DNA of 64,000 bases from Artemia franciscana (taxonomy: Eukaryota > Arthropoda > Branchiopoda > Anostraca > Artemiidae): NCBI RefSeq assembly GCF_032884065.1, contig NC_088868.1, positions 9,314,234 to 9,378,233 on the forward strand, read 5' to 3'. Positions 4,421-64,000 of this stretch are shown in pieces (the stretch's first letter is position 1; each line of letters begins with the position of its first letter). The notes under the pieces were generated by a model. That model was not told the DNA's origin. It was given only the letters and a program-made list of their open reading frames with translations, and did no database searches. The translations under genes and the position numbers were made by a program.

Positions 4421-4490
4421 ATGCCAGGAATTAAACCTGTACCCCTTGGACAAAGGATTCCCAAACCAGAGTGCCAACAACTTAGCAAGG
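4421..4490 (-). repeat. tRNA-like SINE head, unit 2 in copy 1
   Basis: A diverged relative of the unit at 4127-4200, about 295 bp away. The A-box counterpart is TTGCTAAGTTG and the B-box counterpart is GGTTTAATTCC. The sequence following each head on the minus strand also matches between units, so a ~295-bp unit has been duplicated in tandem. Confidence 0.5.
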
Positions 4491-6079: not shown

Positions 6080-6228
6080 TTAGAGTTCAACCAGTCAATT
6101 GTTTCACGCAAAATCACTTTTCATGACAACCTGGTTTGTCACTGTTTCACGCAAAAACAGCGGTTGAGCTCAACCACACCGAGTGGTTGAGCTCAAACAG
6201 TCTCTTTGGTTGACGCGAAAAAAGGCCT
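6080..6228. repeat. Subterminal repeat cluster, right end of copy 1
   Basis: GGTTGAGCTCAACC and variants, plus repeated TTTCACGCAAAA motifs, are packed into the last ~150 bases before the terminal repeat. The same arrangement is mirrored at 18881-19030 in copy 2. Confidence 0.6.
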
Positions 6229-6231
6229 TAA

Positions 6232-8175: not shown

Positions 8176-11852
<3,677 letters not shown>

Positions 11853-20619: not shown

Positions 20620-20690
20620 CCTTGCTAAGTTGTTGGCACTCTGGTTTGGGAATCCTTTGTCCAAGGGGTACAGGTTTAATTCCTGGCATT
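20620..20690 (+). repeat. tRNA-like SINE head in copy 2 (counterpart of 4421-4490)
   Basis: A-box counterpart TTGCTAAGTTG at 20622-20632 and B-box counterpart GGTTTAATTCC at 20673-20683. Confidence 0.5.
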
Positions 20691-20909
20691 GCTAGTTTAT
20701 TTGGTTTTACCAGCTAAGTATTCACCATGCTAGTTTGCATCTTAAGTAAAGCAATCCCTGCTGGAGCTTTGTTGACACCTGCCTTACAATAACTTGTCTA
20801 AGTAAAATACAATGTGTATTGAAGATTAGTGAAAATGGCTGCAAATCCATCTTGTTTTTTTTTCAATATTTTTTTTTTTAATAGTTGTTCTACTCTGGTC
20901 GTAATAATG

Positions 20910-20982
20910 TTCTTGGCTAAGTGGAAAGCACTCTTAGTAAGAAATCATTTGTCCATGGGGTACAGGTTTGATTCCGAGTATT
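20910..20982 (+). repeat. tRNA-like SINE head in copy 2 (counterpart of 4127-4200)
   Basis: TGGCTAAGTGG (20914-20924) is a perfect A-box match and GGTTTGATTCC (20965-20975) a near B-box match. Confidence 0.55.
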
Positions 20983-23900: not shown

Positions 23901-25042
23901 AAGAAAAAAGCGTTTTTAGTGTCATAACTTTGCTCAATTTCAATTTATGAAGTTTCCAAGATTTGGAAACTTTCAGGATATACATTTCCCTATATTTAAA
24001 TACAAAACACTGATATGGCTTAAAATTCTACTCAAATAAAAAGAATTGCATTTTCAGAGCTAAAACCAGAGAAACAGAAACTGCTTGCTGAAAATTAAGG
24101 TAAGATGTTGTTTTACCAAAATTTTAATAGTTACAGACCAGTCCAGTATGCAAAATTCCCAGATTTAAAAACAGAAGAGGGTTATCACATAAGCTTAGCA
24201 ATAGCTTCTCAGAGTATGTTTTTAGCTATGGATTAATCACTGAAAGTTTCATTCACCTAACATAACCCCAATCAAAGATAGCAAAAAGTAGCTAAACTGG
24301 AATTTGAGTGGAAATTTAATCTATAGCCTGGTAGGCTAGTAGAATTCCAAATCAAAACAAAAAGAAGTTAAACTAGAATTTTATCCTCTGTTTAGGGTAG
24401 CTCAACAAAGCTAAAGTCTTATCATTTAGGACTTTTTTATAGATAATTTTGCTTTTACAGTATGAATACAACATTTTCCAATATATTACCTGAACAATTT
24501 AACCAAAGATTCCACTAATTCAGACCCTTCCTATCTCTTCAAATATACCAGAGAGTATGCTAGATCATTTTTCAATTCTCTCTGACCTCAAACTAATGTG
24601 AAATATGTCAAATCCGGAGGAAATTAAGCCAGTGCTAAATCATTTAATTATAATAGAATGACACTCTTAACACTATACGGATGTTTTATGTTTGAAATTT
24701 TTTGCCCAAACCGACAAGTAAAAAGATGTGTTTTCGTGAACCAGTTTTGTTTGAGCTCAACCATATGTAATTTTTTTCGTTTTCGCGTTAAACATTCAAG
24801 CCGGTTAAACCAAAGCTGTCATTGGTTAAACCAGCTGGTTGACGCGAAAAAAGGCCTTAAATTGAAATTGCTGGAACTCAAATAAGGAGAAATAATATGT
24901 AAACATATCGTACAGATAAGTAAGTTTCTGAACCGTCTCTATTTGACAATATATTCTTTATATTCTAGAAATTATATACTCCAGAAGGATATCTGCTACA
25001 ACAGAAAGATGGATAGAAGATTGCTTTGAATGACGGAGGGCT

Positions 25043-29629: not shown

Positions 29630-31058
29630 TTAATGTTCCTTTAAGATGAATCCTCTTTTTTGCATTAAAATTGATTCAAGTTGCTTAATATATTTTCTCT
29701 TTCTGTCCCGGTATCTCTTAGCTGCAAGTGCACCCCTTTTGTTCGACTTCCGTTTCTTTAAATCTTCCAAACACGTTATTTCATCATCTTCAAGGGTTTT
29801 AGTCCCTTTAGCCTTATAGAGTGGAATTTCTTCTCCCAGTTTTTCAAATTCGTTCTTCAACTGCAGAAAGTACTCCCTTTGCTTTCGTCTGTACTCTCTT
29901 GATCGGAAAGCTTCGCTCGACACTTTTAGTGAAAGTGACTTTTTTTTTAAAGTGGGGGTTCGAAACTGAGGATTTTCACCCGCTTTCTTCCTTACTATTG
30001 CTGACCCTCTAGATCTCAGAGTCGCACTGTTATCATCAGATGCATTATAGGACAAAATAGGACTTTTTAAGTCATCTTGTCGATTTACACAGGAGACTTT
30101 TTGACGTTGTAGGTTTTCCTTAGTAGTAACAGTTGGTGAAAGGCTTTTTTTCAGTTGCAGTTTTAGCTAAACTTTGATTGTGAGGGACACCATCGTATTT
30201 TACTACATCCAGAGGCTGTTTAAATCGATTTATAGTATCTAAAATGCTTTGATCTGTAGGTTTGTCTCTGACTGCACTCAAACTTTTTTCTTTATCAGTA
30301 TTTTTCATGAGCTCTGACACATCAACATCACTAGATAGATCCTGATTGCGGGTATGTTTTTGTCCAAGCTCTTTGATGTTATTTTCATATAGTTGTGGGG
30401 AAGTTATATTTAAATTCTTTTTCTTAGAACCTGAAACATAAGTAGGAGATGCACTAACAATTCTTTTTTTCTTTAGAAGAGAGTTAGAACGTGTTTTCAA
30501 TAGGTCAGCCAAGGAGTTTTCCGGATCAAAAAGCTTCACTTGCTTTCGATTAAGCACTGGTGACCTTCCAATTTGGGGTGTCTGCTTCTTCACAGCAGCA
30601 GGTCGTAAACGATGTGCTGCATGTGTTTTCTTCCGCAAGGAAGGCTTTTTTTCTTCCGCAAGTTTTTGTAGGCTTCCTTTATTATGTATTAGACTTCAAC
30701 CACCTTTGTCTTTAGCGTGATTACGCTTTTTAGTAAAGACAGGCAATGGGCTATGGCTAAGCTTCTTCTTTTTTGCTAAAGATTGAGTGTAAGCAGGTGT
30801 TCCATTTTTTTCTGGACTTTCTTCAACCTCTTTAATCTGGTTAGCAGATGAAGAAATCGGTTCTTCTTTTTTATTCGTTTCACCCTGAGTGACGATTGAA
30901 GGCAATAGTGTGGTGGGCAAACTAGGAGTTGGCTGATGGACTAGGCCAGTTCCACTCAATAAATTTGATTTACTACCAGGAGTAAAAAACGGAGTTTGGA
31001 GTAGAACATTCGACCAAGCTAAATTTGATGATAATATTTGTTGTTGCTGAGCGTTTAA
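29630..31058 (-). pseudogene. Truncated bZIP transcription-factor pseudogene
   Basis: A relative of the open gene at 32723-34048. Homology starts abruptly at 31058, so about 300 N-terminal residues are missing. The frame runs through TPSLPTTLLPSIVTQGETN to an in-frame TGA (30698-30696), then continues open in the same frame through a basic, Ser-rich stretch. A one-base shift in an A7 run near 30150 is followed by QRQKVSCVNRQDD and a region ending in the basic domain NKRGALAAKRYRDRKRKY and a short LESILMQKRG tail, stopping at 29630. Two lesions plus 5' truncation mark it as non-functional. It keeps about 330 middle residues that the other copy has lost. The relationship is seen directly; the bZIP call rests on the N-x7-R basic motif. 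Confidence 0.75.
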
Positions 31059-32722: not shown

Positions 32723-34048
32723 TTAATGTTCCTTTAAGATGAATCCTCTTTTTTGCATTAAAATTGATTCAAGTTGCTTAATATATTTTCTCTTTCTGTC
32801 CCGGTATCTCTTAGCTGCAAGTGCACCCCTTTTGTTCAACTTCCGTTTCTTTAAATCTTCCAAACACGTTATTTCATCATCTTCAAGGGTTTTAGTCCCT
32901 TTAGCCTTATAGGGTGGAATTTCTTCTTTAATCTGCTTAGCAGATGAAGAAATCGGTTCTTCTTTTATATTCGTTTCACCCTGGGTGACGATTGAAGGCA
33001 ATAGTGTGGTGGGCAAACTAGGAGTTGGCTGATAGACTGGGCCACTTCCACTCAATAAATTTGATATACTACCAGGAGTAAAAAACGGAGTTTGGAGTAG
33101 AACATTCGACCAAGCTATATTTGATGATAATATTTGTTGTTGCTGAGCGTTTAAACTTTCTGCATTGGAAGCTGGTCTCTGCTCTGTGTTTGGTTGTCCC
33201 TGAGACGCAGCTGAATTTGGGATAAACGTGGACAGTATCAATGTTACTGCTTGTCGCACGCAATTCTCAAAATTTTGGGGAGTAAACAATTGATTCGAAT
33301 TTGTTTCATCATTCACTTTCACAGAATTACTTTGGATAACAGCACCGAGGTTCTTACTACTAGACTGAATTGGTGAAAATAAATCACTAAGTTCTTGTGG
33401 TTTTGGGGGAACTACTCTGTTTGGTGTGCTACTTGCGGTTCGTACAGTCCCGTTCTTAGCATATTCTGACATATTCGTAAGGCGCCCCTTGTTATTTACT
33501 TTACGAGGCTTAACACTAGTGAAAATTTGAGTTGGAGCTTCAGACAACACACTAATTGAGTCTGGCGATTGGTCAGACGTTTCATTTGGAAACAGTGATG
33601 CAGAAGTTGATAATGAAAGGGAAGAAGGCTTCAAAGCTGCAACAGGTGTGCAGGTTGCGCGAAGGCGTGACCTTGTAATACGTTTCCCAGAACTGTCAGA
33701 AAGTATTTTTTCATCTAACAGCGAGAGTACGTCATTAAGTTCGCGGCCCTTGACAGAAGTCGAGTCATCCTTCAGTTTCAGCACAGAAGTGTATCTCTTA
33801 TACTTTTGTGATTGCGAAACAGCCCCCGTCTCACTGTTGACAGAAACAGTAACTTCACTTGAGCTACACTCTTTCCTCACATGTCTTTTTTTTATGTCAT
33901 TATCATCTGCATCACGGTTTTCTAATACTGAACCTTTATTTTCATCAACTTCCCATAATCCAGAAGGTGTTTTCACAGCTTCGTCACCATTTTCTTTGGT
34001 TTGAAAGGAGTCCCTTGATTTATCTTTTCCTTTCTGTTTAGAAATCAT
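32723..34048 (-). CDS. bZIP-domain protein, open copy with internal deletion
   Basis: A 441-residue open frame from ATG at 34048, with an in-frame stop shortly upstream. The first ~380 residues are Ser/Thr/Asn-rich and low in order, with a QAVTLILSTFIP hydrophobic patch and PTPSLPTTLLPSIV. The C-terminus has an acidic TLEDDEITCLEDL and a bZIP basic region NKRGALAAKRYRDRKRKY (N-x7-R), then only about two heptads before the stop, too short for stable dimerisation. Against 29630-31058 it lacks about 1.0 kb between QIKE and EIPPYKAKG; frame is kept and the junction shows a TCT microhomology. No introns are seen in the homologous parts. A DNA-binding nuclear role is inferred; I do not recognise the orthologue. 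It may be a gene fragment carried by repeats. Confidence 0.6.
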   Translation of the reverse strand: MISKQKGKDKSRDSFQTKENGDEAVKTPSGLWEVDENKGSVLENRDADDNDIKKRHVRKECSSSEVTVSVNSETGAVSQSQKYKRYTSVLKLKDDSTSVKGRELNDVLSLLDEKILSDSSGKRITRSRLRATCTPVAALKPSSLSLSTSASLFPNETSDQSPDSISVLSEAPTQIFTSVKPRKVNNKGRLTNMSEYAKNGTVRTASSTPNRVVPPKPQELSDLFSPIQSSSKNLGAVIQSNSVKVNDETNSNQLFTPQNFENCVRQAVTLILSTFIPNSAASQGQPNTEQRPASNAESLNAQQQQILSSNIAWSNVLLQTPFFTPGSISNLLSGSGPVYQPTPSLPTTLLPSIVTQGETNIKEEPISSSAKQIKEEIPPYKAKGTKTLEDDEITCLEDLKKRKLNKRGALAAKRYRDRKRKYIKQLESILMQKRGFILKEH

Positions 34049-44723: not shown

Positions 44724-47475
44724 AAAGGTGCTGCTTGGAGAACAAGATAAAGATAATTTGTCAAATGGATCGAAAATTTCAGAAGAATTTTCAGCAAATC
44801 CTCTCATAGACGATTCAAATAAATTGGGAAACGGTAGTGGTTCTTACGGTGTTGATTGCCCCGATACGAATACTGAGATAGACTTATCCGGAATTCCAGA
44901 TGGAAACTGCATTGTGAATCTAAGGTATTTCCTTGCTGAAGTAATTTCAGCATTCAGAAACAAAATCAGTTGCGATCACGGAAAATTGATTATAAAGCAA
45001 TTAGAAAAGAAAGGCCTGAAAACTGAACTGAAAGTTAAGTGTAATAAGTGTAACTGGGAAAAGAGGATTAAAGGTGAACCAGAATGTCCAGCAACAAGCG
45101 TAAAAGAATATCTTTCAAGTTTTACGGACCAGACACAGGTTGCTTTTTCCGAAAAAAAAAATCAAATCTTAAAGGATGCTTGAATTCGAAGGCTGTTTGG
45201 GGAGCCATGGGTAGTGGAGGAGGGTATTCTACACTGTGTGAATTCTTCGGGGTGCTTGGAGTGAAACCAATGTCACGAATAGTTTATTCCCGTATTGAAA
45301 GGCAGCTTGGTAATGCTTGGATGAATAGTTTATCGGAAATTTTGCTAGAAAATGGACGAGAGGCCTTAAAATCAGCCATTCATGATGATAGGTATAAGGA
45401 GGACTCATACTGGACAAAAGTGATATGTGATGGAGGCTGGAATAAGCGTAGCAAAGGACACGATTATTCGGCCAAAGGATGTGTTGCAGTTATCATAGAT
45501 GCATTTACGAAAAAACTGTTATATGTTGGCATAAAAAATAAATACTGTTATATATGTTTTTCTTCTGCAAACGGCAAAGTAATTCCCAAAGATCATTTCT
45601 GCTTTCTGAATTATAACGGAAATTCAAGGAGCATGGAAACAGATATTCTAGTTGAAGGCTTTCGTTCCAGTGAGGAGATGCACGGATTACAGTTTTTAGA
45701 GTTTATCGGTGACGGTGATTCCAGTGTTTTTTATAAGCTAAAACAAAGTGTTTCCTACGGTTCCAACATACGGAAACATGAATGTGCAAATCACGTCACA
45801 AAAAACTATACAGCCCATCTATATAATTTGTGCAAAAATAAAAAAGGTTTGTACACAAAATGTCTTCCCCGAGGAATTATCCAGCAACTGACAAAAAATT
45901 TAAGGGGTGCGATAAAAATAAATTCTGAAAATAATGGAACAGCAGAAGAATTGAAAATCTTGTTAAAAAGAGGTCCGTACCATGTTTTCGGAAACCACAC
46001 AAAATGTGATTCTGGATGTCCTAAGATTGCTGAATTGACCGTGAATAGTAAAATAGAAGATCGGTGGAATAATTTTCCCCTGCACGTGTTTGAAGATGTT
46101 ATGACAGAGGTCGATATTGTGTGTCGAAAAGCAGAGCAGCTTCGAAATGACGCAACTACAAACTTAGCTGAAAGCTACATGTCAGTTGTTGCTAAATTCA
46201 TCGGAGGAAAGCAAATAAGCCGGTCTAAACGAGGTTCATATCATGCAAGAGTTCATGGAGCAAGTCTTGCTTATAATTCAGGTCCAAAATGGCATCAATT
46301 AGCTTGGAAAAATATTTTTGGGCTTAGTCCTTCTAGCGTAACAAAAAAATATTGTAATAAAACGGCTAAACTCCGTGTAATATCTAAACGTAATTTGACC
46401 AGTTATTATAGTGCTCTTGGAGGAAAACACGTTGTTAAGTTAAAAAATAGAAACTATAACTTTGGTAATCGTGACTATGGACCAAATTGCAATAAGCCAG
46501 ACATGACTTCTGATGAAATGAATTTGGCCATACAAAAATATACTGACGAGAATTTAAAATTGGATTTTGCCAGTATAAGCTGTTTGTTCAACAGTACCAA
46601 GGGCCAATCCAAAAATGACACTTGGGTTGAAGAAAGATCTAAGAGAATAACTAGTAGTTACTTCCCCAGAATTGCAACCAGAAAAAACAGCACCAGAGTT
46701 GCCCCAATTGTTAAGCAAATTCGAAACTTGGGACCTAGATTCTGCTCTGCCCTAATGAAAAAGGGCTTAGATTTAGAAGTAGTGGCACTAGAAGCATATG
46801 AAAACAAATTCAACTTAAAAGTCGTAAAGGGAGATCAAATAGGACTCAGTGTGCATCCACAGTATCAGTATCTTGCTGCATCTGTAGATGGGCTGCTCCC
46901 TAATGGCACACCTATAGAGATAAAAACGGTGCATAATATACCAGAGTTCAAAACCATTTATGATGTGGCCCAGTCAAAAAATTTAGTTAAAGCATTTTTT
47001 CTTGAATTATCCAGTGAAGGTCTTCAGCTAAAAAAAAATCACAGGTATTTCGCCCAGATACAAGGCCAACTCGAGATACTGGATAAAATGGTATGCCACT
47101 TAATAGTTTATACTCTATTGAGGATTGGGAAATAATTACAGTTCACCGATCGAAAGACTACTGGGAAAAAATATTTCCGAAGCTTGAAGCCTTCTGGAAT
47201 GAATCCTTACTTCCTGAAATTTTAGACTCAAGGGTTGCAAGGATATGGAAATCAGAGAACCTGTGTCTGTAAAATGTACAACAGCCCACCAACCGAAGGA
47301 CTCAAGCTTGTCTCAAGAAATAAAAAGAGGAAAAAAAAGAAGGTTGAGTCGAGTTGAAGTGAACAGCAAGAAAAAAAACGCACAGAAGGGATCGGGGGAG
47401 AACAGTGAATTTACCAGGAACTCAATGCATGAAAACAGTGATTTTGAAGAAATAATTTGGTCTGATTTGGAATAG
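44724..47475 (+). pseudogene. Mutator-like transposase fused to a YqaJ-type PD-(D/E)XK nuclease, frameshifted
   Basis: One protein spread over three frames. Part 1 (44724-45160) has a zinc-ribbon-like CNKCNW. Near an A10 run at about 45150-45160 the frame changes to the 45084-47135 frame. There residues 34-370 match the Mutator-like domain of invertebrate YqaJ proteins: CDGGWNKRSKGHDYS (D116), GDGDSSVFYKL (D210/D212), CANHVTKNY, and TTNLAESYMSVVAKF (E363). Residues ~510-683 match YqaJ-like nucleases: WVEERSKRITSSYF, ASVDGLL (D602), IEIKT (E612, K614) and FAQIQGQ. At about 47113 a second one-base shift leads to EDWEIITVHRSKDYWEKIF and LLPEILDSR, ending near 47270; a basic tail may continue in a third frame to 47475. 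An acceptor-like TTTTTTTAG precedes 44724, so earlier exons may be missing. Two shifts suggest a pseudogene, though homopolymer errors are possible. Confidence 0.75.
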
Positions 47476-49171: not shown

Positions 49172-49271
49172 NNNNNNNNNNNNNNNNNNNNNNNNNNNNN
49201 NNNNNNNNNNNNNNNNNNNNNNNNNNNNNNNNNNNNNNNNNNNNNNNNNNNNNNNNNNNNNNNNNNNNNNN
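49172..49271. other. Assembly gap (100 N)
   Basis: One hundred unknown bases directly at the end of the 17-bp minisatellite. The assembly probably broke on this repeat, so its true length is unknown. Confidence 1.
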
Positions 49272-49938
49272 AAATCTCTTGTGTGTGTAAATCTCTTGTG
49301 TGTATAAATCTCTTGTGTGTGTAAATCTCTTGTGTGTGTAAATCTCTTGTGTGTGTAAATCTCTTGTGTGTGTAAATCTCTTGTGTGTGTAAATCTCTTG
49401 TGTGTGTAAATCTCTTGTGTGTGTAAATCTCTTGTGTGTGTAAATCTCTTGTGTGTGTAAATCTCTTGTGTGTGTAAATCTCTTGTGTGTGTAAATCTCT
49501 TGTGTGTGTAAATCTCTTGTGTGTGTAAATCTCTTGTGTGTGTAAATCTCTTGTGTGTGTAAATCTCTTGTGTGTGTAAATCTCTTTTGTGTGTAAATCT
49601 CTTGTGTGTGTAAATCTCTTTTGTGTTTAAATCTCTTGTGTGTGTAAATCTCTTTTGTGTGTAAATCTCTTGTGTGTGTAAATCTCTTGTGTGTGTAAGT
49701 CTCTTGTGTGTGTAAATCTCTTGTGTGTGTAAATCTCTTGTGTGTGTAAATCTCTTGTGTGTGTAAATCTCTTGTGTGTGTAAATCTCTTGTGTGTGTAA
49801 ATCTCTTGTGTGTGTAAATCTCTTGTGTGTGTAAATCTCTTGTGTGTGTAAATCTCTTGTGTGTGTAAATCTCTTGTGTGTGTAAATCTCTTGTGTGTGT
49901 AAATCTCTTGTGTGTGTAAATCTCTTGTGTGTGTAAAT
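49272..49938 (-). repeat. 17-bp minisatellite inside the LINE reverse transcriptase
   Basis: About 39 head-to-tail copies of 'aaatctcttgtgtgtgt', nearly identical, with a few G-to-T variants between 49570 and 49650. Because 17 is not a multiple of 3, one frame passes through all three phases; on the minus strand none contains a stop, giving a 17-residue repeat THTRDLHTQEIYTHKRF. Confidence 0.97.
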
Positions 49939-52169
49939 CCCAGGTCCGTAACCAAATCATTAATATAAAGGAGAAAAAGTATTGGACCAAGAACAGAGCC
50001 TTGTGGGACGCCCCTTCGGACAGGTAGGGGATGTGAAGTCAACCCGCCCAGACTCACACTCTGTACTCTACCAGAGAGATAAGAGCCAAACCATGAGAAA
50101 GGAACTCCACGAATCCCTAAGTTGTTGAGTTTACTTAATAGAACACTGTGATCAACCATATCAAAGGCCTTAGAAAAGTCCAGAAATAAGCCCAATACAG
50201 TATTTTTAAGGTCAAGTTGGGAACGTATAAACTGTGTGGCGTCTATTAGTGCATGAGCAGTTGAAAATTTGGAACGGAAGCCATATTGATGAGGAGAAAT
50301 CAACGAATCTGAAGAATGAATCCCAAATAAAAAGGGAGAAAGACGTCGGAATACAATTCTCTCGAGCACTTTAGATATAACTGGGAGAAGTGAGATTGGA
50401 CGATAATTACTTATCTCAGACGGATCGCCTTTTTTATGAATCGGGATAACAATTGCTGATTTAAATATTTCTGGGAAGACTCCATTGGTCATAGACAGGT
50501 TTGCTATGTGCACAATGGGTTCACAAACATAGGAAGATACGGTCCTAAGAAGCTTATTACTTATGCCAAAGAAGTCAGGTGTACTACTATTAGAGAGACA
50601 ATTGATAACTTGAAGCACCTCTTTACGATCAGTTGGAGAGAAAAACATAGATCCAGGATTCTTGCTAGGTTGAACTGACTGGGAGAAGGAACAGGAGTTA
50701 GCATTTGGAATATTAGTGAAATAATTATTAAAAGCATCCGGTACTGAACTTGGGTCAATTAATCTGCCACTGATGTCCTTAAGGTTAAGAGGTACAGATC
50801 TTGAACTTCTTTTTTTTGAAAGAATTTCATTTATTGTTGACCAAATTTGTTGCAAGTTCCCTTTGCAATGAGAGATTTTCGAATAATAATAATTTTTTTT
50901 TGCTTCCCGGACAAGTTTGGTATATAAATTTTTGTATTTTTTATAATTAGTCAGGTCAATAACGTTACTGGTTTTGCAAGCTAACTTATATAGGTCATTT
51001 TTTCGATATGAAGAGATTATCAGGCTATTTGACATCCAGGGACGTATATGGCTAGTTTTTCGGTTTGATTTACGAACTGGAAAGGTTGAACTGATAAGAT
51101 CACTCAGTCCTTGTGTAAAACCATTTGTGGCTGAATTAACATCCTGACAATCCAAAACCTTGGACCAGTCAAAGGATTTCAAACGATCCGTGAACCTGTT
51201 CATATTCACAGTATTATATATTCTATTATACGTAGGGGTTTTAGTTCTAGAGGGCTGAGTAGTTGGTAGGGAGGGTAGCGAGAGATAGATTGGAAAGTGA
51301 TCTGACAGGTCAGAAAATATTATTTTGGAGGACAGGTGGTTTCCCAGGGAAGTGGATACAAAAATGTTGTCAATTACAGTAGCTGTAGACCTCACAGGAT
51401 CAACTCTAGTAGGAAAAAGGATTGTGGGAAGAAGACCACTTGAGGTGAATGTTTCAAAAAAGGTATCACAATCATTATTATTGCTAACATTTAGTAAATT
51501 ACAATTGAAGTCCCCAAAAACTATTGCCTTCTTTTGTGGTAAATTAATAAAACTAGAAAAATCATCAAATAGGTTACAAAAGAAAGGGGTCGGAAATGAG
51601 GGGGGCTTATAAAATAATGAAAAAATAAGAGAATTCTCGTCAACACTTATGTCTACGATTATTGAATAAATGCATCTATTATTTATAGGTTGCGAGAATA
51701 AGGATTCACAGTCTAATAGCCTGGTGAATTTCAGACTTGACCGGATGTAAAGAGAAATGCCGCCAGAGGACTTGGTTAATTTTCTTTCAATATGAATAGC
51801 TTGAAAACCAGGGAGGGAAAATTCATTCTTATCATCAATTTCTGAAAGCCATGTTTCCGTTATTCCAATTACGTCGAAAGGGCAGTAACCATTAATTAAA
51901 ACTAAGTCTTTAAAATTAGCCCACTTATCCCGTATACTTCTGATGTTAAAGCAAATTACATTAAGTTTGGTCTCTTCCATTAGCTTAGGTTTCACATTTT
52001 TTACAAAATCAAAAGTGTCGAGATATTCACAGTTAATTTGGTTTAAAGGGCTATCGGGGCTAGCTAAGGGGCTGGTGGGCAAATTATTTTGGTCATCGTT
52101 ATAGTTAAAGACAACATTATTACACAGTGATAAATTCGTGAGAAACGTAAAATCTTGTACGGTGCACAT
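49939..52169 (-). CDS. LINE ORF2: AP endonuclease plus reverse transcriptase (truncated at 3' end)
   Basis: Catalyses target-primed reverse transcription in this class of element. ATG at 52169 follows the ORF1 stop directly. The N-terminal endonuclease has NVICFNIRSIRDKW, ITETWLS, KAIVFGDFNCNLL, IDNIFVS and SDLSDHFPIY, with catalytic positions kept. RT motifs follow: SNYRPISLLPVISKVLERIV, HQYGFRSKFSTAHALID, GLFLDFSKAFDMVDHSVLL (the catalytic Asp of motif A is within FSKAFD), RRGVPQGSVLGPILFLLYIN. The domain stops at INDLVTDLG, just before the expected FADD motif, where the 17-bp minisatellite begins. The frame stays open through the repeat to a stop near 49080, but that extension is not RT. 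About 743 residues of real LINE sequence remain. As assembled it cannot make a complete RT. Confidence 0.85.
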
Positions 52170-52172
52170 TTA
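52167..52172 (-). promoter_or_regulatory. TAA-ATG stop/start junction between ORF1 and ORF2
   Basis: The minus strand reads TAAATG, with both ORFs in the same frame and no spacer. This suggests ORF2 is made by termination-reinitiation or by stop readthrough. Coupled stop/start translation is documented for the SART1 LINE (UAAUG); applying it here is inference. Confidence 0.6.
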
Positions 52173-53807
52173 AACATCCATTGTGGTCTGAGTTTCATCA
52201 TCTCCTTGATTAGAATATTGGAAATCTTCTTCAGCCGACGAAATATCATTGGTGGTAATTTTGGACTGGGATGGAAAGTTTGCCGTTTTTTTCTTAGATT
52301 TCTTGCCTTTGACTAGGGCAGTGGCATCGATTACCGTCTTGGGGGTTGTGGCAATTTCAGAGCCTGCATTGATTTGATTTGCAGTTGAGTCTACAGACTT
52401 AACTAGCTTTGATGTGGAATCTATGTCCTTCTTCATGGAGGATAATTGAGCCATAGCTGTTTCTAATATGTCATCACCTAGGAGTTTAGTGATAGCTTTC
52501 TTCTTGAGAGTATTTTTGGTTTCCTCAGCTTCATTACTAACCTCAATTAAGTGACTGACTGTGAGATAAGTTGCAAGCCTTTGCCATTCTTGGCTATTTT
52601 TAGATGAATCTTTTGGAGGGCAGGATGTTGAAGTAAACTTAGGTAAGGGATGGGGGGAATGACTAGAACCTTGAGTATGAACATTATTTGCCTCTTTTGG
52701 AAATGATACTGTCTTTGCATCTGCTACAGCAACTGTTGCTTGGCTTCTACTGGGCCGATGGGGTGTGGGTTGCCAAGGGATTCTTGCAGCTACAACTGAG
52801 TAGGGTAGGTTCATTTTATCAGATGTTCTAAGGATTACAACTCGCTTTTGGTGAGCTGGGCAAGATTGTTTTTGGAGGGCTGTGTGTCCCTTCCGGTTAC
52901 AATTTCTGCAGAAAGGTTCTGACTCAGGGCATTCACTAATTGCGTGGCCTGTTTTCCCACACTTAAGGCAAGACGGATGGGACTGTTTGCAGTGTTTTTT
53001 GCTGTGGCCGTGGGCTAGACAAGTGGAGCATTGTAGGGGCTTAGGCTTATAAATCTTGTAAAAAAGAGACATACCGTACAAGAATATTTCTCCGCTTAGC
53101 TCAACTTTGCAGCAAATGAGGATTGAACGGCTAGGGTGAAGAAAACCTTCTTTGTTTAAACTTAGCCTTGTAGCAGTTGAAGGATTGATGAGAAGACCTG
53201 AAGAATCTATTAGTTCAGTTTGTATTTCCTCCACTTTTACACTGGTATCAACACCATACAGCACATACTTGTGTAACTTTTCCACATCTTTTTTTGTGGC
53301 TAAAATTTTTGAGCCATCAAGAATTATTTCTTTGGATTTTGACAGGACATGGTCTGCCGCCTGAGAAGACGTAAAGTAAATATCAATAGACTCGTCCTGC
53401 TTGAAAACAAGTTCAAAATTCACCTTGGTGATCAGAAAGACAGCTTTCCTAATTTGCATTATTCGATCTTTTGAAAAGGGTTGGCCATTGGTTTTCTTGA
53501 TTGAGACAGTATAATAATTGGGGTGATCGTTAGCACTTGTTTCTGGGACACTTGAAGAGAGGGGTTGCACTATCGTTGGTGAACGAGTTTCATCCTTTTT
53601 CCTCTTTTTGCCAGGCGTCTCACCTCTTTCATTAGAGTTAGTTTCGGCTAAGGCCTGAATTCCTGACAAGTGGCTAACAGTTTTGGATCGCGTAGTTGGG
53701 GGGGTTCTAGGAAGAGTTTTATAGGTAGGTTGGAATGGTGACCGGCTAAGGGTTTCAGTGGGAGTATCCTTCTCGGGTGGTAGCCTTAGGGGCTTTTTCC
53801 CCGTCAT
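52170..53807 (-). CDS. LINE ORF1: gag-like RNA-binding protein with zinc knuckles
   Basis: A 545-residue intact frame from ATG (53807) to TAA. The first ~90 residues are basic and Pro/Ser/Thr-rich with a KKRKKDE nuclear-signal-like patch. Residues ~95-245 form a folded region (NYYTVSIKKTNGQPF onward) of the type found before zinc knuckles in insect LINE gag proteins. Residues ~255-305 hold CCHC-type knuckles: CSTCLAHGHSKKHC, CLKCGKTGHAISEC, and CRNCNRKGHTALQKQSC with longer final spacing. The tail is Ser/Lys-rich with a possible coiled coil. It should coat element RNA in a ribonucleoprotein. Its stop codon is followed immediately, in the same frame, by the ATG of ORF2. Confidence 0.85.
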   Translation of the reverse strand: MTGKKPLRLPPEKDTPTETLSRSPFQPTYKTLPRTPPTTRSKTVSHLSGIQALAETNSNERGETPGKKRKKDETRSPTIVQPLSSSVPETSANDHPNYYTVSIKKTNGQPFSKDRIMQIRKAVFLITKVNFELVFKQDESIDIYFTSSQAADHVLSKSKEIILDGSKILATKKDVEKLHKYVLYGVDTSVKVEEIQTELIDSSGLLINPSTATRLSLNKEGFLHPSRSILICCKVELSGEIFLYGMSLFYKIYKPKPLQCSTCLAHGHSKKHCKQSHPSCLKCGKTGHAISECPESEPFCRNCNRKGHTALQKQSCPAHQKRVVILRTSDKMNLPYSVVAARIPWQPTPHRPSRSQATVAVADAKTVSFPKEANNVHTQGSSHSPHPLPKFTSTSCPPKDSSKNSQEWQRLATYLTVSHLIEVSNEAEETKNTLKKKAITKLLGDDILETAMAQLSSMKKDIDSTSKLVKSVDSTANQINAGSEIATTPKTVIDATALVKGKKSKKKTANFPSQSKITTNDISSAEEDFQYSNQGDDETQTTMDV

Positions 53808-54016
53808 TTATTCCGACGAGATACTGCAGATTCACAAACTTAATCACAGTTTTTAATCAGCGATAACACCAATATATTCAATTATACACTAATAATAACT
53901 CACTGTGTATGAAGTGAGCAATCCCTCACAATTAAGTCCGCAAGTTAATTGCGCAATCACAATACAGTACAAAAAGTAATCCGGTTAGGTTCATAAGCTA
54001 GTTCCTTTTAGTTCAG
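53808..54016. other. LINE 5' flank or 5' UTR
   Basis: About 210 bases between the ORF1 start and the first module of the satellite array. No promoter motif can be assigned with confidence. Confidence 0.4.
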
Positions 54017-54183
54017 ATACTAAATTCATACAGTCTATATCAATATCAATAGAGTCTATCTATAGATAGAGTCTATATCGATATCAATAGAGTCTATCTA
54101 TTGATAGACTAGCTAGAATCAATAAAACTTTTAATAGATTCAGCAGTGAAAGTTTGATTCTAGCTAGTCTGTCTACTATTTCT

Positions 54184-54192
54184 ATGAGTCAT
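54184..54192. promoter_or_regulatory. First of many ATGAGTCAT (AP-1/GCN4-type) motifs in the array
   Basis: ATGAGTCAT is the high-affinity consensus for AP-1/GCN4 bZIP dimers. It recurs throughout 54-64 kb in both orientations, usually as ATGAGTCAT-ATGCAA-GACGTCAT, where the last part is one base from a CRE (TGACGTCA). The first copy is followed by GAATATAA instead of GACGTCAT. Binding is untested. Confidence 0.45.
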
Positions 54193-54626
54193 ATGCAAGA
54201 ATATAATATCGGTAGAAATAGACAATAATATCGGCCACTGCGCGTCTTTTCTAAAATGACGTCTTGCATATGACTCCGTTTAATAAATGACTTTTAAAGT
54301 CATTAGAAAAAAAAGAAATTTTTTCAGCTATGAATCTAGTAAGCAAGAGTCATATGCAAGACGTCATTTTAGAAAAGACGCGCAGTGGCCGATATTATTG
54401 TCTATTTAATAGACAATAATATCTTGTATATCGGAATAGTAGATAGTTTGATTCTAGCTAGTCTATCTACTATTTCTATGAGTCATATGCAAGACGTCAT
54501 TTTAGAAAAGACGCGCAGTGGCCGATATTATTGTCTATTTCTATTTCTACTCCGTTTAATAAATCTATCTACTCTTGTATGCAAGACCTTTCATTTCATT
54601 CATAACATAAATAGTAGATAGACTGG

Positions 54627-57089
54627 CTAGAATAGACAAATAAAACTCATAGAAATAGTAGATAGACTAGCTAGAATCAAAATATTTTGCACAAGGACTT
54701 GCATATGACTCATAGAAATAGTAGATAGACTAGCTAGAATCAAACTTTCACTGCTGAATCTATTAAATCTATTTGAATATCGGCCACCTAGAGGCCTAGA
54801 GGAAAATATTTTGCACAAGGCCGCAAGCCTTCACTAGAAACAGTGAAAGTTTGATTCTAGCTAGTCTATCTACTATTTCTATGAGTCTTTGTTGTAAAAT
54901 ATTGTAGTACTATTTCTATGAGTCATATGCAAGAATATAATATCGGTAGAAATAGACAATAATATCGGCCACTGCGCGTCTTTTCTAAAATAACGTCTTG
55001 CATATGACTCATAGAAATAGTAGATAGACTAGCTAGAATCAAACTTTCACTGCTGAATCTATTAAAAGTTTTAATAGATTCAAAACTTTTAATTCTTAAA
55101 GATTCAAAACTTTTAATAGATTCAGCAGTGAAAGTTTGATAAGTTTCTAAGAATACTTAGAGTAGATAGATAGAATAGAATAGATAGAGATAATAAGTTT
55201 TCTATGAGTCATATGCAAGACGTCATTTTAGAATCTATTAAAACTTTTAATAGATTCAGCAGTGAAAGTTTGATTCTAGCTAGTCTATCTACTATTTCTA
55301 TGAGTCATATGCAAGACGTCATTTTAGAAATCTATTTGAATCTAGAATCAAACTTTCACTGCTGAATCTATTAAATCTATTTGAATATCGGCCACCTAGA
55401 GGCCTAGAGGAAAATGTCCAGAATCAAAGTTTTATAAAATTTTATTTCTATGAGTTTTATTAAAGTTTCTTGTATTCTAATTGATTTTAAAAACTTACTA
55501 TTGATTCTAGACCAGCTAGAATCAATAGTAGATAGACTAGCTAGAATCAATAAAACTTTTAATAGATTCAGCAGTGAAAGTTTGATTCTGGCTAGTCTGT
55601 CTACTATTTCTATGAGTCATATGCAAGAATATAATATCGGTAGAAATAGACAATAATATCGGCCAATGCGCGTCTTTTCTAAAATGACGTCTTGCATATG
55701 ACTCCGTTTAATAAATGACTTTTAAAGTCATTAGAAAAAAAAAAAAAAATTTTTCAGCTATGAATCTAGTAAGCAAGAGTCATATGCAAGACGTCATTTT
55801 AGAAAAGACGCGCAGTGGCCGATATTATTGTCTATTTAATAGACAATAATATCTTATACAATAAAATCAATTAGAATACAAGAAAGTTTGATTCTAGCTA
55901 GTCTATCTACTATTTCTTATCAATCTCTACTATTTCTGTTCGTGGATTTGCTTACTAGGTCAGAGATCTACTCATCTAGATCTCTAGATGAGATCTAGTC
56001 TATCTACTATTTCTATGAGTCATATGCAAGACGTCATTTTAGAAAAGACGCGCAGTGGCCGATATTATTGTCTATTTTTACGATATTATTGTCTTGCATA
56101 TGACTCATAGAAATAGTAGATAGACTAGCTAGAATCAAACTTTCACTGCTGAATCTATTAAAAGTTTTATTGAAGTTTTATTAAACGGGGCGGTGTTCGT
56201 GGATTTGCTTACTAGGTCAGAGTTATGGACTTGCATATGAGAATATGCGTAGGACTCATAGAAATAGAATCAAACTTTCACTGCTGAATCTATTAAAAGT
56301 TTTATTGATTCTTGCTAGTCTATCTACTATTGATTCTAGCTGGTCTAGAATCAATAGATTAGAATTCTAGAACCATATGCAAGACGTCACATACGAACTA
56401 GTGCTATTCTATTGATTCTATTAGAATCAAACAGAAAGTTTGATTCTAGATTCAAATAGATTTGAATCTATTTATTGAATAGTGAAAAAGTCTTTTCTAA
56501 AATGACGTCTTGCATATGACTCATAGAAATAGTAGATAGACTAGCTAGAATCAAAATATTTTGCACAAGGACTTGCATATGAGAATATGCGTATAACTCA
56601 TAGAAATAGAATCAAACTTTCACTGCTGAATCTATTAAAAGTTTTATTGATTCTAGCTAGTCTATCTACTATTGATTCTAGCTGGTCTAGAATCAATAGT
56701 AAGTTTTTAAAATCAATTAGAATACAAGAAAGTTTGATTCTAGCTAGTCTATCTACTATTTCTATGAGTCATATGCAAGACGTCATTTTAGAAAAGACGC
56801 GCAGTGGCCGATATTATTGTCTATTTAATAGACAATAATATCTTGTATATCGTAATAGTAGATAGTTTGATTCTAGCTAGTCTATCTACTATTTCTATGA
56901 GTTTTATTTGTCTATTCTAGCTAGTCTATCTACTATTTCTATGAGTCATATGCAAGACGTCTTTTTAGAAAAGACGCGCAGTGGCCGATATTATTGTCTA
57001 TTTCTATTTCTACTCCGTTTAATAAATCTATCTACTCTTGTATGCAAGACCTTTCATTTCATTCATAACATAAATAGTAGATAGACTAG
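54627..57089. repeat. Array unit 1 (2463 bp)
   Basis: Full-length unit. It shares diagnostic variants with the unit spanning about 58620-60946 (for example 'tttgttgtaaaata' and 'ccaatgcgcgtc'). Confidence 0.85.
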
Positions 57090-58619
57090 CTAGAATAGAC
57101 AAATAAAACTCATAGAAATAGTAGATAGTCTAGCTAGAATCAAAATATTTTGCACAAGGACTTGCATATGACTCATAGAAATAGTAGATAGACTAGCTAG
57201 AATCAAACTTTCACTGCTGAATCTATTAAATCTATTTGAATATCGGCCACCTAGAGGCCTAGAGGAAAATATTTTGCACAAGGCCGCAAGCCTTCACTAG
57301 AAACAGTGAAAGTTTGATTCTAGCTAGTCTATCTACTATTTCTATGAGTCTTTGTAGTAAAATATTGTAGTACTATTTCTATGAGTCATATGCAAGAATA
57401 TAATATCGGTAGAAATAGACAATAATATCGGCCACTGCGCGTCTTTTCTAAAATAACGTCTTGCATATGACTCATAGAAATAGTAGATAGACTAGCTAGA
57501 ATCAAACTTTCACTGCTGAATCTATTAAAATGTTTAATAGATTCAAAACTTTTAATTCTTAAAGATTCAAAACTTTTAATAGATTCAGCAGTGAAAGTTT
57601 GATAAGTTTCTAAGAATACTTAGAGTAGATAGATAGAATAGAATAGATAGAGATAATAAGTTTTCTATGAGTCATATGCAAGACGTCATTTTAGAATCTA
57701 TTAAAACTTTTAATAGATTCAGCAGTGAAAGTTTGATTCTAGCTAGTCTATCTACTATTTCTATGAGTCATATGCAAGACGTCATTTTAGAAATCTATTT
57801 GAATCTAGAATCAAACTTTCACTGCTGAATCTATTAAATCTATTTGAATATCGGCCACCTAGAGGCCTAGATGAAAATGTCCAGAATCAAAGTTTTATAA
57901 AATTTTATTTCTATGAGTTTTATTAAACTTTCTTGTATTCTAATTGATTTTAAAAACTTACTATTGATTCTAGACCAGCTAGAATCAATAGTAGATAGAC
58001 TAGCTAGAATCAATAAAACTTTTAATAGATTCAGCAGTGAAAGTTTGATTCTAGCTAGTCTATCTACTATTTCTATGAGTCATATGCAAGAATATAATAT
58101 CGGTAGAAATAGACAATAATATCGGCCACTGCGCGTCTTTTCTAAAATGAAGTCTTGCATATGACTCCGTTTAATAAATGACTTTTAAAGTCATTAGAAA
58201 AAAAAAAAAAAATTTTCAGCTATGAATCTAGTAAGCAAGAGTCATATGCAAGACGTCATTTTAGAAAAGACGCGCAGTGGCCGATATTATTGTCTATTTA
58301 ATAGACAATAATATCTTATACAATAAAATCAATTAGAATACAAGAAAGTTTGATTCTAGCTAGTCTATCTACTATTTCTTATCAATTTCTACTATTTCTG
58401 TTCGTGGATTTGCTTACTAGGTCAGAGATCTACTCATCTAGATCTCTAGATGAGATCTAGTCTATCTACTATTTCTATGAGTCATATGCAAGACGTCATT
58501 TTAGAAAAGACGCGCAGTGGCCGATATTATTGTCTATTTCTACGATATTATTGTCTTGCATATGACTCATAGAAATAGTAGATAGACTAGCTAGAATCAA
58601 ACTTTCACTGCTGAATCTA
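57090..58619. repeat. Array unit 2, cut short by a 1069-bp deletion
   Basis: Shares variants with the unit at 60947-63406 ('tttgtagtaaaata', 'gatgaaaatgtcc', 'aatgaagtcttgc'). At 58619 it jumps from one context of the module ending 'tgctgaatctattaaa' to another, skipping about 1.07 kb relative to unit 1. Confidence 0.85.
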
Positions 58620-60946
58620 TTAAATCTATTTGAATATCGGCCACCTAGAGGCCTAGAGGAAAATATTTTGCACAAGGCCGCAAGCCTTCACTAGAAACAG
58701 TGAAAGTTTGATTCTAGCTAGTCTATCTACTATTTCTATGAGTCTTTGTTGTAAAATATTGTAGTACTATTTCTATGAGTCATATGCAAGAATATAATAT
58801 CGGTAGAAATAGACAATAATATCGGCCACTGCGCGTCTTTTCTAAAATAACGTCTTGCATATGACTCATAGAAATAGTAGATAGACTAGCTAGAATCAAA
58901 CTTTCACTGCTGAATCTATTAAAAGTTTTAATAGATTCAAAACTTTTAATTCTTAAAGATTCAAAACTTTTAATAGATTCAGCAGTGAAAGTTTGATAAG
59001 TTTCTAAGAATACTTAGAGTAGATAGATAGAATAGAATAGATAGAGATAATAAGTTTTCTATGAGTCATATGCAAGACGTCATTTTAGAATCTATTAAAA
59101 CTTTTAATAGATTCAGCAGTGAAAGTTTGATTCTAGCTAGTCTATCTACTATTTCTATGAGTCATATGCAAGACGTCATTTTAGAAATCTATTTGAATCT
59201 AGAATCAAACTTTCACTGCTGAATCTATTAAATCTATTTGAATATCGGCCACCTAGAGGCCTAGAGGAAAATGTCCAGAATCAAAGTTTTATAAAATTTT
59301 ATTTCTATGAGTTTTATTAAAGTTTCTTGTATTCTAATTGATTTTAAAAACTTACTATTGATTCTAGACCAGCTAGAATCAATAGTAGATAGACTAGCTA
59401 GAATCAATAAAACTTTTAATAGATTCAGCAGTGAAAGTTTGATTCTGGCTAGTCTGTCTACTATTTCTATGAGTCATATGCAAGAATATAATATCGGTAG
59501 AAATAGACAATAATATCGGCCAATGCGCGTCTTTTCTAAAATGACGTCTTGCATATGACTCCGTTTAATAAATGACTTTTAAAGTCATTAGAAAAAAAAA
59601 TAAAATTTTTTCAGCTATGAATCTAGTAAGCAAGAGTCATATGCAAGACGTCATTTTAGAAAAGACGCGCAGTGGCCGATATTATTGTCTATTTAATAGA
59701 CAATAATATCTTATACAATAAAATCAATTAGAATACAAGAAAGTTTGATTCTAGCTAGTCTATCTACTATTTCTTATCAATCTCTACTATTTCTGTTCGT
59801 GGATTTGCTTACTAGGTCAGAGATCTACTCATCTAGATCTCTAGATGAGATCTAGTCTATCTACTATTTCTATGAGTCATATGCAAGACGTCATTTTAGA
59901 AAAGACGCGCAGTGGCCGATATTATTGTCTATTTTTACGATATTATTGTCTTGCATATGACTCATAGAAATAGTAGATAGACTAGCTAGAATCAAACTTT
60001 CACTGCTGAATCTATTAAAAGTTTTATTGAAGTTTTATTAAACGGGGCGGTGTTCGTGGATTTGCTTACTAGGTCAGAGTTATGGACTTGCATATGAGAA
60101 TATGCGTAGGACTCATAGAAATAGAATCAAACTTTCACTGCTGAATCTATTAAAAGTTTTATTGATTCTTGCTAGTCTATCTACTATTGATTCTAGCTGG
60201 TCTAGAATCAATAGATTAGAATTCTAGAACCATATGCAAGACGTCACATACGAACTAGTGCTATTCTATTGATTCTATTAGAATCAAACAGAAAGTTTGA
60301 TTCTAGATTCAAATAGATTTGAATCTATTTATTGAATAGTGAAAAAGTCTTTTCTAAAATGACGTCTTGCATATGACTCATAGAAATAGTAGATAGACTA
60401 GCTAGAATCAAAATATTTTGCACAAGGACTTGCATATGAGAATATGCGTATAACTCATAGAAATAGAATCAAACTTTCACTGCTGAATCTATTAAAAGTT
60501 TTATTGATTCTAGCTAGTCTATCTACTATTGATTCTAGCTGGTCTAGAATCAATAGTAAGTTTTTAAAATCAATTAGAATACAAGAAAGTTTGATTCTAG
60601 CTAGTCTATCTACTATTTCTATGAGTCATATGCAAGACGTCATTTTAGAAAAGACGCGCAGTGGCCGATATTATTGTCTATTTAATAGACAATAATATCT
60701 TGTATATCGTAATAGTAGATAGTTTGATTCTAGCTAGTCTATCTACTATTTCTATGAGTTTTATTTGTCTATTCTAGCTAGTCTATCTACTATTTCTATG
60801 AGTCATATGCAAGACGTCTTTTTAGAAAAGACGCGCAGTGGCCGATATTATTGTCTATTTCTATTTCTACTCCGTTTAATAAATCTATCTACTCTTGTAT
60901 GCAAGACCTTTCATTTCATTCATAACATAAATAGTAGATAGACTAG
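58620..60946. repeat. Array unit 3 (start replaced by the deletion junction)
   Basis: Nearly identical to unit 1 from about 54767 onward. Confidence 0.85.
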
Positions 60947-63406
60947 CTAGAATAGACAAATAAAACTCATAGAAATAGTAGATAGTCTAGCTAGAATCAA
61001 AATATTTTGCACAAGGACTTGCATATGACTCATAGAAATAGTAGATAGACTAGCTAGAATCAAACTTTCACTGCTGAATCTATTAAATCTATTTGAATAT
61101 CGGCCACCTAGAGGCCTAGAGGAAAATATTTTGCACAAGGCCGCAAGCCTTCACTAGAAACAGTGAAAGTTTGATTCTAGCTAGTCTATCTACTATTTCT
61201 ATGAGTCTTTGTAGTAAAATATTGTAGTACTATTTCTATGAGTCATATGCAAGAATATAATATCGGTAGAAATAGACAATAATATCGGCCACTGCGCGTC
61301 TTTTCTAAAATAACGTCTTGCATATGACTCATAGAAATAGTAGATAGACTAGCTAGAATCAAACTTTCACTGCTGAATCTATTAAAATGTTTAATAGATT
61401 CAAAACTTTTAATTCTTAAAGATTCAAAACTTTTAATAGATTCAGCAGTGAAAGTTTGATAAGTTTCTAAGAATACTTAGAGTAGATAGATAGAATAGAA
61501 TAGATAGAGATAATAAGTTTTCTATGAGTCATATGCAAGACGTCATTTTAGAATCTATTAAAACTTTTAATAGATTCAGCAGTGAAAGTTTGATTCTAGC
61601 TAGTCTATCTACTATTTCTATGAGTCATATGCAAGACGTCATTTTAGAAATCTATTTGAATCTAGAATCAAACTTTCACTGCTGAATCTATTAAATCTAT
61701 TTGAATATCGGCCACCTAGAGGCCTAGATGAAAATGTCCAGAATCAAAGTTTTATAAAATTTTATTTCTATGAGTTTTATTAAACTTTCTTGTATTCTAA
61801 TTGATTTTAAAAACTTACTATTGATTCTAGACCAGCTAGAATCAATAGTAGATAGACTAGCTAGAATCAATAAAACTTTTAATAGATTCAGCAGTGAAAG
61901 TTTGATTCTAGCTAGTCTATCTACTATTTCTATGAGTCATATGCAAGAATATAATATCGGTAGAAATAGACAATAATATCGGCCACTGCGCGTCTTTTCT
62001 AAAATGAAGTCTTGCATATGACTCCGTTTAATAAATGACTTTTAAAGTCATTAGAAAAAAAAAAAAATTTTCAGCTATGAATCTAGTAAGCAAGAGTCAT
62101 ATGCAAGACGTCATTTTAGAAAAGACGCGCAGTGGCCGATATTATTGTCTATTTAATAGACAATAATATCTTATACAATAAAATCAATTAGAATACAAGA
62201 AAGTTTGATTCTAGCTAGTCTATCTACTATTTCTTATCAATTTCTACTATTTCTGTTCGTGGATTTGCTTACTAGGTCAGAGATCTACTCATCTAGATCT
62301 CTAGATGAGATCTAGTCTATCTACTATTTCTATGAGTCATATGCAAGACGTCATTTTAGAAAAGACGCGCAGTGGCCGATATTATTGTCTATTTCTACGA
62401 TATTATTGTCTTGCATATGACTCATAGAAATAGTAGATAGACTAGCTAGAATCAAACTTTCACTGCTGAATCTATTAAAAGTTTTATTGAAGTTTTATTA
62501 AACGGGGCGGTGTTCGTGGATTTGCTTACTAGGTCAGAGTTATGGACTTGCATATGAGAATATGCGTATGACTCATAGAAATAGAATCAAACTTTCACTG
62601 CTGAATCTATTAAAAGTTTTATTGATTCTTGCTAGTCTATCTACTATAGATTCTAGCTGGTCTAGAATCAATAGATTAGAATTCTAGAACCATATGCAAG
62701 ACGTCACATACGAACTAGTGCTATTCTATTGATTCTACTAGAATCAAACAGAAAGTTTGATTCTAGATTCAAATAGATTTGAATCTATTTATTGAATAGT
62801 GAAAAAGTCTTTTCTAAAATGACGTCTTGCATATGACTCGTAGAAATAGTAGATAGACTAGCTAGAATCAAAATATTTTGCACAAGGACTTGCATATGAG
62901 AATATGCGTATGACTCATAGAAATAGAATCAAACTTTCACTGCTGAATCTATTAAAAGTTTTATTGATTCTAGCTAGTCTATCTACTATTGATTCTAGCT
63001 GGTCTAGAATCAATAGTAAGTTTTTAAAATCAATTAGAATACAAGAAAGTTTGATTCTAGCTAGTCTATCTACTATTTCTATGACTCATATGCAAGACGT
63101 CATTTTAGAAAAGACGCGCAGTGGCCGATATTATTGTCTATTTAATAGACAATAATATCTTGTATATCAGAATAGTAGATAGTTTGATTCTAGCTAGTCT
63201 ATCTACTATTTCTATGAGTTTTATTTGTCTATTCTAGCTAGTCTATCTACTATTTCTATGAGTCATATGCAAGACGTCATTTTAGAAAAGACGCGCAGTG
63301 GCCGATATTATTGTCTATTTCTATTTCTACTCCGTTTAATAAATCTACCTACTCTTGTATGCAAGACCTTTCATTTCATTCATAACATAAATAGTAGATA
63401 GACTAG
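60947..63406. repeat. Array unit 4 (2460 bp)
   Basis: Full-length relative of unit 2, differing mainly in the length of an A run near 62057. Confidence 0.85.
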
Positions 63407-64000
63407 CTAGAATAGACAAATAAAACTCATAGAAATAGTAGATAGACTAGCTAAAATCAAAATATTTTGCACAAGGACTTGCATATGACTCATAGAAATA
63501 GTAGATAGACTAGCTAGAATCAAACTTTCACTGCTGAATCTATTAAATCTATTTGAATATCGGCCACCTAGAGGCCTAGAGGAAAATATTTTGCACAAGG
63601 CCGCAAGCCTTCACTAGAAACAGTGAAAGTTTGATTCTAGCTAGTCTATCTACTATTTCTATGAGTCCTTGTAGTAAAATATTGTAGTACTATTTCTATG
63701 AGTCATATGCAAGAATATAATATCGGTAGAAATAGACAATAATATCGGCCACTGCGCGTCTTTTCTAAAATGACGTCTTGCATATGACTCATAGAAATAG
63801 TAGATAGACTAGCTAGAATCAAACTTTCACTGCTGAATCTATTAAAAGTTTTAATAGATTCAAAAGTTTTAATTCTTAAAGATTCAAAACTTTTAATAGA
63901 TTCAGCAGTGAAAGTTTGATAAGTTTCTAAGAATACTTAGAGTAGATAGATAGAATAGAATAGATAGAGATAATAAGTTTTCTATGAGTCATATGCAAGA
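63407..64000. repeat. Array unit 5, truncated by the window end
   Basis: The first ~594 bases match units 1-4. Confidence 0.9.

Follow-up and report, generated by a model that had tools for sequence, protein, structure and literature searches.

We analysed a 64,000 bp stretch of the Artemia franciscana genome (contig NC_088868.1, forward strand, here C6:9314234-9378233; the window) that ends in a long array of a complex satellite DNA, and we followed the satellite through an assembly of 1,270,528,402 bp in 6468 contigs (denoted C plus a number). The tandem array has a repeat unit of 2463 or 2460 bp and spans from position 54033 to the window end. An earlier note, made from the letters of the window, had placed its start at 54017, a few bp off; identity with an opposite, inverted arm of the array on C6 begins at 54033. 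A scan for open reading frames (ORFs) in the array part of the window found none of at least 120 amino acids, in agreement with the note, and the mosaic is without coding function.

All units in the window lie on the plus strand. The edge of the array is a variant unit with internal deletions (E, 54033-54697), in which path alignment identified unit positions 834-1079 (at 54103-54346), 2069-2172 (at 54347-54450) and 2217-2463 (at 54451-54697); 54033-54102 does not align to the unit, yet belongs to the same edge variant. Unit alignment then gave L1a (54698-57160, 2463 bp), S (57161-58554, 1394 bp, also by path alignment), L1b (58555-61017, 2463 bp; the reference unit, with position 1 at 58555) and L2 (61018-63477, 2460 bp). 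The first 523 bp of the next unit (P, 63478-64000) carry the array on past the window. L1a and L1b differ at 2 of 2463 columns and S and L2 at 0 of 1392, whereas L1 and L2 differ at 23-25 of 2460. The second unit is thus an L2-type unit lacking 1066 bp, shortened at a 70 bp module repeat (junction from position 1395 to position 1, 70 bp homology), and 3857 = 2463 + 1394. The note had units 1 and 3 alternating with units 2 and 4. The two classes are real, but unit 2 is shortened and P is close to neither class (4 mismatches to L1, 5 to L2).

The 3857 bp higher-order period that the note derived from this alternation is present in the window as L1 plus S, where a full and a truncated (1394 bp) unit have been duplicated locally in tandem. 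It is not general. Offset 3857 gave only baseline identity (0.27-0.30) in 22 other loci longer than 8 kb, and in the opposite arm on C6 the L1-L2 pair is single rather than duplicated; we therefore rejected the period as a general higher-order repeat. The duplication was seen in one contig only, and the truncating junction of S has one further occurrence, on C19. Repetition of multi-unit blocks in register, with blocks more alike than their units, thus holds for the single 3857 bp duplication of the window and not, at that offset, for the 22 other loci.

Beyond the window the array reaches an N gap at C6:9392455, past which it is mostly inverted, with two inserts of other DNA, up to an N gap at 9429585. 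In this opposite arm the stretch C6:9409862-9415561 is 99.88-99.89% identical to the window array (5035 and 4592 bp aligned), and window positions 54033-54800 match the opposite arm at 100% identity over 768 bp. These arms could represent a pair of haplotypes that were joined head to head across the gap, or else form a true palindrome.

The unit is a mosaic of modules reused in both orientations. Of the 16-mers in L2, 62% recur on either strand (53% in direct and 49% in inverted orientation), whereas 100 shuffled sequences gave 0.0065% on average. The note had put the number of modules at perhaps a dozen; greedy parsing of the consensus, in which a 116 bp monomer (see below) served as an additional source, resolved 37 copied blocks covering 81% of the unit and left 461 bp unique. 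The consensus unit contains 30 direct and 31 inverted module pairs; the inverted pairs, each of at least 40 bp, are intra-monomeric inverted segments of the kind that define complex (Tribolium-type) satellites. Folding is extreme: z was -31 for a 998 nt single strand folded as DNA and -28 for 1000 nt of the other strand folded as RNA (20 shuffles each). Perfect hairpins (arm of at least 12, loop of at most 60) number 17 in the consensus unit and 0 in 20 shuffles, and include plus-strand examples with 38 bp arms and a 58 nt loop at 59852-59985 (consensus 1298-1431) and with 35 bp arms and a 33 nt loop at 58895-58997 (consensus 341-443). The note's picture of a self-inverted mosaic satellite, with tandem units of 2.46 kb and many hairpins in each, was right. 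A search of the window for structured RNA found no Rfam family that reached its gathering score. AP-1-like TGASTCA sites (11 per unit) and CRE-like sites occur in the 2463 bp unit as copies of a few modules, and its 18 AluI sites are irregularly spaced.

Much of the mosaic can be traced to a simple satellite. Contig C715 begins with a 116 bp tandem array (53.1 copies, 98% matches) that passes unbroken into the mosaic. Pieces of the 116 bp monomer, 33 in all (17 forward and 16 reverse), account for 59% of the 2463 bp unit; the longest stretch above 95% identity in L1b lies on the minus strand at 60319-60412 (98.9%; unit positions 1765-1858), and consensus modules differ from the 116 bp consensus at none of 483 test sites. 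A 30-mer of the 116 bp arrays that is in neither mosaic unit matches the assembly exactly 25,240 times (reversed control, 0). By sequence, the 116 bp satellite is the likely parent from which the 2463 bp unit largely derives. From the simplicity and abundance of the 116 bp form, and from the remnant joints, we infer that it came first and the mosaic second. Within the monomer lies an inverted repeat of 13 bp, from which fold-back may have started. It also has one AluI site per copy, so that AluI digestion would give a ladder of about 116 bp. Artemia satellite DNA, treated by Cruces and co-workers (1986, Gene 44:341), reportedly has an AluI repeat of about 113 bp, and by its AluI spacing the 116 bp monomer may belong to the same family.

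The joint between the 116 bp array and the mosaic led to a sister mosaic that has a 1017 bp unit and the same modules. The joint, which the 2463 bp unit lacks, occurs at 137 exact places in the assembly; among the 100 listed, 43 are on C14, where they are scattered across 14.79-15.10 Mb, and others are for example on C1201, C1251, C1442, C2501 and C2906. Loci of the 1017 bp unit include C14:14830501-14833500, C2501:8001-11500 and C1251:26001-30000. When pieces of the 2463 bp unit are aligned to the 1017 bp unit, they account for 99% of it (75-93% identity), and fragments of the 116 bp monomer account for 63%.

The satellite character of the mosaic is evident from its head-to-tail tandem units in long arrays and its high copy number. 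In viral contigs, a 24-mer found no exact match. A core 24-mer has 9328 exact matches in the assembly (4599 + 4729; control, 0). Counted at one per 500 bp (from 23 loci), these correspond to about 4.7 Mb, and the 500 exact matches of a 202-base probe to about 2.9 Mb by the same rule; both probes also match the 1017 bp unit, and the totals of roughly 3-5 Mb cover both mosaics together. The 202-base probe forms local clusters inside chromosome-size scaffolds and is found on many unplaced contigs: among the 100 of 500 places listed (up to C444), 10 are on C6, 1 on C7, 17 on C14, 9 on C15, 8 on C19 and 55 on C169-C444. Direct reading placed the 2463 bp type on C6, C19 and nine unplaced contigs (C562, C586, C704, C715, C744, C1526, C1803, C1900 and C3133), and a probe spacing of 2464 bp suggests that C15 carries it as well. 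C14 looks like the 1017 bp type, and its 202-base matches are therefore excluded from the 2463 bp arrays. An isolated island at C5:2764197-2764850, the only match to the core 24-mer before C6 among the matches listed, has two cores and rearranged modules, and terminates within a module.

Divergence was sampled from the window and 23 loci, at a median depth of 82. Unit diversity is 0.0119, about 1.2%, and mostly consists of singletons: 574 of 800 variant alleles (72%) occur once, compared with about 20% expected at neutral equilibrium, and only 5 alleles are in more than 10 copies, with a minor allele reaching at least 10% at 5 sites. Mean distances are 0.0106 within contigs (181 pairs), 0.0118 between contigs (1893 pairs) and 0.0112 between neighbours (37 pairs), and internal branches account for 16% of the length of a tree of 37 units. 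Modules within single present-day units are 1.0-1.5% apart, equal to the difference of unit from unit. At 3252 centred test sites, paired modules of the consensus show 4 differences; an alternative list (61 pairs, 2 mismatches in 3987 bp) favours perfect matches by its settings, which the former does not. Since the consensus modules are near-identical, modules would have been almost alike in the reconstructed founder unit.

Path alignment of 24 sequences, chosen because variant modules hop from one position to another, yielded 85 junctions, and dropping the 10 inside the 116 bp array raised median homology from 20 to 29 bp. The remaining 75 (71 direct, 4 inverted) fall into 50 types, 4 of them inverted. 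Homology is at least 20 bp in 43 of the 75 junctions and 27 of the 50 types, a level reached by 0.14% of 20,000 randomly paired unit positions. Homology is below 10 bp in 17 of the 50 types, so some junctions were not driven by it. The consensus has about as many direct as inverted module pairs (30 and 31), yet direct junctions are in excess, which suggests unequal exchange or slippage rather than recombination free in every orientation. Ten types are common to at least two contigs or arms. In the three types that C6 and C19 share, the flanks diverge by 1.36-1.58%, as much as any two units do, which suggests that the junctions either recurred or arose before the burst (see below); other shared types have flanks less than 1% apart in at least some pairs, pointing to common descent. 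The three large strand flips examined, on C6, C19 and C14, are all at 100-N gaps, so that palindromes of chromosome scale, or macro-dyads of the T. madens type (large gap-free arrays in opposite orientations), are only conjectural here. Gap-free strand changes occur on C1900 (two), C1803, C3133 (with an insert of about 105 bp) and C19 (near 24152942); such inversions are few, and just one is common to two contigs.

We think it rather probable that the mosaic is a complex satellite in which a 116 bp satellite was briefly scrambled, amplified in a burst and is still being reshaped by recombination between modules. The 2463 bp unit would have been assembled from direct and inverted fragments of the 116 bp satellite, with a few hundred bp from elsewhere. 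The shuffling was presumably brief and recent, because the fragments are still near-identical in the consensus unit, and its simplest route would be template switching or fold-back while a hairpin-prone array was being replicated. The finished unit would then have multiplied in a burst that reached more than one chromosome, as the star-like divergence of sampled copies and the presence of the unit on C6 and C19 suggest; the vehicle may have been, for example, rolling-circle amplification of excised circles. Judging from junction homology, later exchange between like-oriented modules appears to delete or duplicate parts of units, and the 3857 bp period of the window would be one such event. A structural role of the satellite in heterochromatin is possible.

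Several observations weigh against this reconstruction. The tree is not a pure star, with 13 of 34 nodes supported at 0.9 or above (C6 with C715, for example), and near-identical neighbouring units exist. The loci were drawn from the top matches to a single query (1239 candidates, 40 of them scored) and from their neighbourhoods, a sample that favours typical copies. Some singletons may be assembly error, given 567 transitions to 684 transversions, but the C6 arms agree at 99.89% over 4592 bp. Efficient gene conversion at the level of modules could likewise keep modules identical, and the junctions shared by C6 and C19 could be older than the burst. The findings do not discriminate between template switching and repeated recombination as the process that made the mosaic, and the precedence of the 116 bp form is deduced from its simplicity, its abundance and the remnant joints.

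A sharper version of these events is a single catastrophe-like episode, in which disturbed replication of a hairpin-forming 116 bp array would have led, by fold-back template switching, to mosaic units of identical direct and inverted modules, at least two of which (2463 and 1017 bp) escaped and were amplified fast, probably via circles. We advance it tentatively; if true, a simple satellite, the products of its shuffling and their continuing decay can all be seen in a single genome.

A different history, which we regard as unlikely, is that of an old mosaic which concerted evolution, through gene conversion and unequal exchange, has kept homogeneous for a long time, so that identity would say nothing about age. 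Module exchange clearly occurs, and modules at different places of the unit are hardly further apart than modules at the same place (0.0125 and 0.0120 over 3987 bp), as that history would have it. Most variants are singletons, however, and neighbouring units are hardly closer to each other than to units of other contigs. No polymorphism is common to module positions, a weak test with 5 frequent sites and several of 12 pairs out of register.

Two further explanations appear improbable, and to about the same degree. In the first, the mosaic began as a transposable element, a foldback element or a miniature inverted-repeat transposable element (MITE) with internal inverted repeats, and turned tandem. 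The inverted modules would fit such an origin, as would the isolated C5 island, which by eye has the 11 bp direct repeat ATTGTTAGATA on both sides. That island ends inside a module, however, and no terminal repeat common to it and to one array end was seen by eye; the array lacks an ORF of 120 amino acids, and 59% of the unit is simple-satellite sequence. The note had named a known transposon family as a finding that would overturn its reading; none was recognised from ORFs, Rfam and ends inspected by eye, without a transposon library. In the second, the structure itself is selected, as hairpin or cruciform DNA or hairpin RNA with a putative role in centromeric or pericentromeric chromatin. 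The z scores and the local clusters in chromosome-size scaffolds are in its favour, as is the precedent of dyad-rich pericentromeric satellites in Tribolium (passages of PMC13081366). Against it, just five large scaffolds (C6, C7, C14, C15 and C19) carry the exact 202-base probe among the matches listed (to C444), units vary by about 1.2% throughout, and gap-free inversions are few, one alone being in two contigs.

That the unit is an assembly artefact, a collapsed or chimeric joining of simpler satellite such as the note had allowed for, is most improbable: the three gap-associated flips, the confinement of the 3857 bp duplication to one contig and, per passages of PMC11492255, the making of the assembly from PacBio long reads with 10x and Hi-C were counted in its favour, but C6 and unplaced contigs such as C715, C744, C1526 and C562 contain complete 2463 bp units of about 98.5-99% identity, and C19 contains large parts, so that the unit is not a local product.

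Several other elements lie in or beside the array. A long interspersed nuclear element (LINE) on the minus strand (49971-54032) abuts the array with its 5' side. Pfam identified an endonuclease and a reverse transcriptase in its ORF2 (49971-52169); ORF1 (52170-53807) has no Pfam match and shows CCHC knuckles by eye. The LINE is missing at the matching place of the opposite C6 arm and is not part of the satellite. A 17 bp minisatellite (39 copies, window 49272-49939) lies in frame of ORF2 and starts at an N gap (49172-49271). Inside the same satellite are a LINE of about 5 kb at C6:9422921-9427948, with a PWWP domain in ORF1 (Pfam E 7.9e-8) and 3' (TCTTA)n repeats, and a non-satellite, MITE-like insert of 1.75 kb at C6:9381973-9383718 with inverted repeats by eye. 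Elsewhere in the window, two 6 kb inverted copies (244-6229 and 18880-24862, 98.2% identical) surround a 12.6 kb stretch with an ORF for a DDE_Tnp_4 (HARBI1-like) transposase at 10890-11852. One ORF at 45084-47135 joins a Mutator-like transposase domain to a YqaJ-type domain. Related ORFs at 29630-30055 and 32723-34048 (98.5% DNA identity over 331 bp) end in a basic C-terminus that looks bZIP-like by eye; of the two, the larger was scanned and has no Pfam match.

How complex satellite monomers develop out of simple ones mostly has to be deduced from sequences already in decay. In Artemia, a likely 116 bp parent, two shuffled descendants and the products of recombination are found together, and hardly any divergence predates the amplification. 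It should thus be possible to read off directly in what order events took place, where the switches lie and how fast modules are exchanged, and to test this in related brine shrimps. Searches of an open-licence library, by titles and the openings of abstracts, showed no mosaic satellite of Artemia.

Among known systems, higher-order repeats of the alpha-satellite type consist of a multi-monomer unit that is amplified as a block. The Artemia satellite resembles them in block amplification and differs in that its modules are truncated, lie in both orientations and keep no head-to-tail monomer order. Complex satellites with inverted segments are known from Tribolium and Trichogramma (passages of PMC13081366). 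The 1061 bp major satellite of Tribolium brevicornis has inverted segments of about 470 bp (Mravinac et al., 2005, as relayed in passages of PMC13081366) and, like the Artemia unit, is a complex monomer with long inverted segments able to fold into a hairpin, whereas the Artemia unit is composed of some 37 short direct and inverted blocks. TmSat1 and TmSat2 of Tribolium madens stem from an element of about 110 bp, TmSat2 monomers have inverted segments of about 300 bp, and ectopic recombination between similar subunits has been invoked for them (passages of PMC13081366). Derivation from a short element and inverted segments are features shared with Artemia, but the few lettered subunits of T. 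madens contrast with a unit that is longer and finer-grained and whose consensus modules are near-identical. The 385 bp satellite of Trichogramma brassicae likewise has inverted repeats (80 bp) within its monomer (passages of PMC13081366), which unlike that of Artemia is short. Beside these systems, the degree of modular shuffling in the Artemia unit and its coexistence with parent and sister arrays appear unusual.

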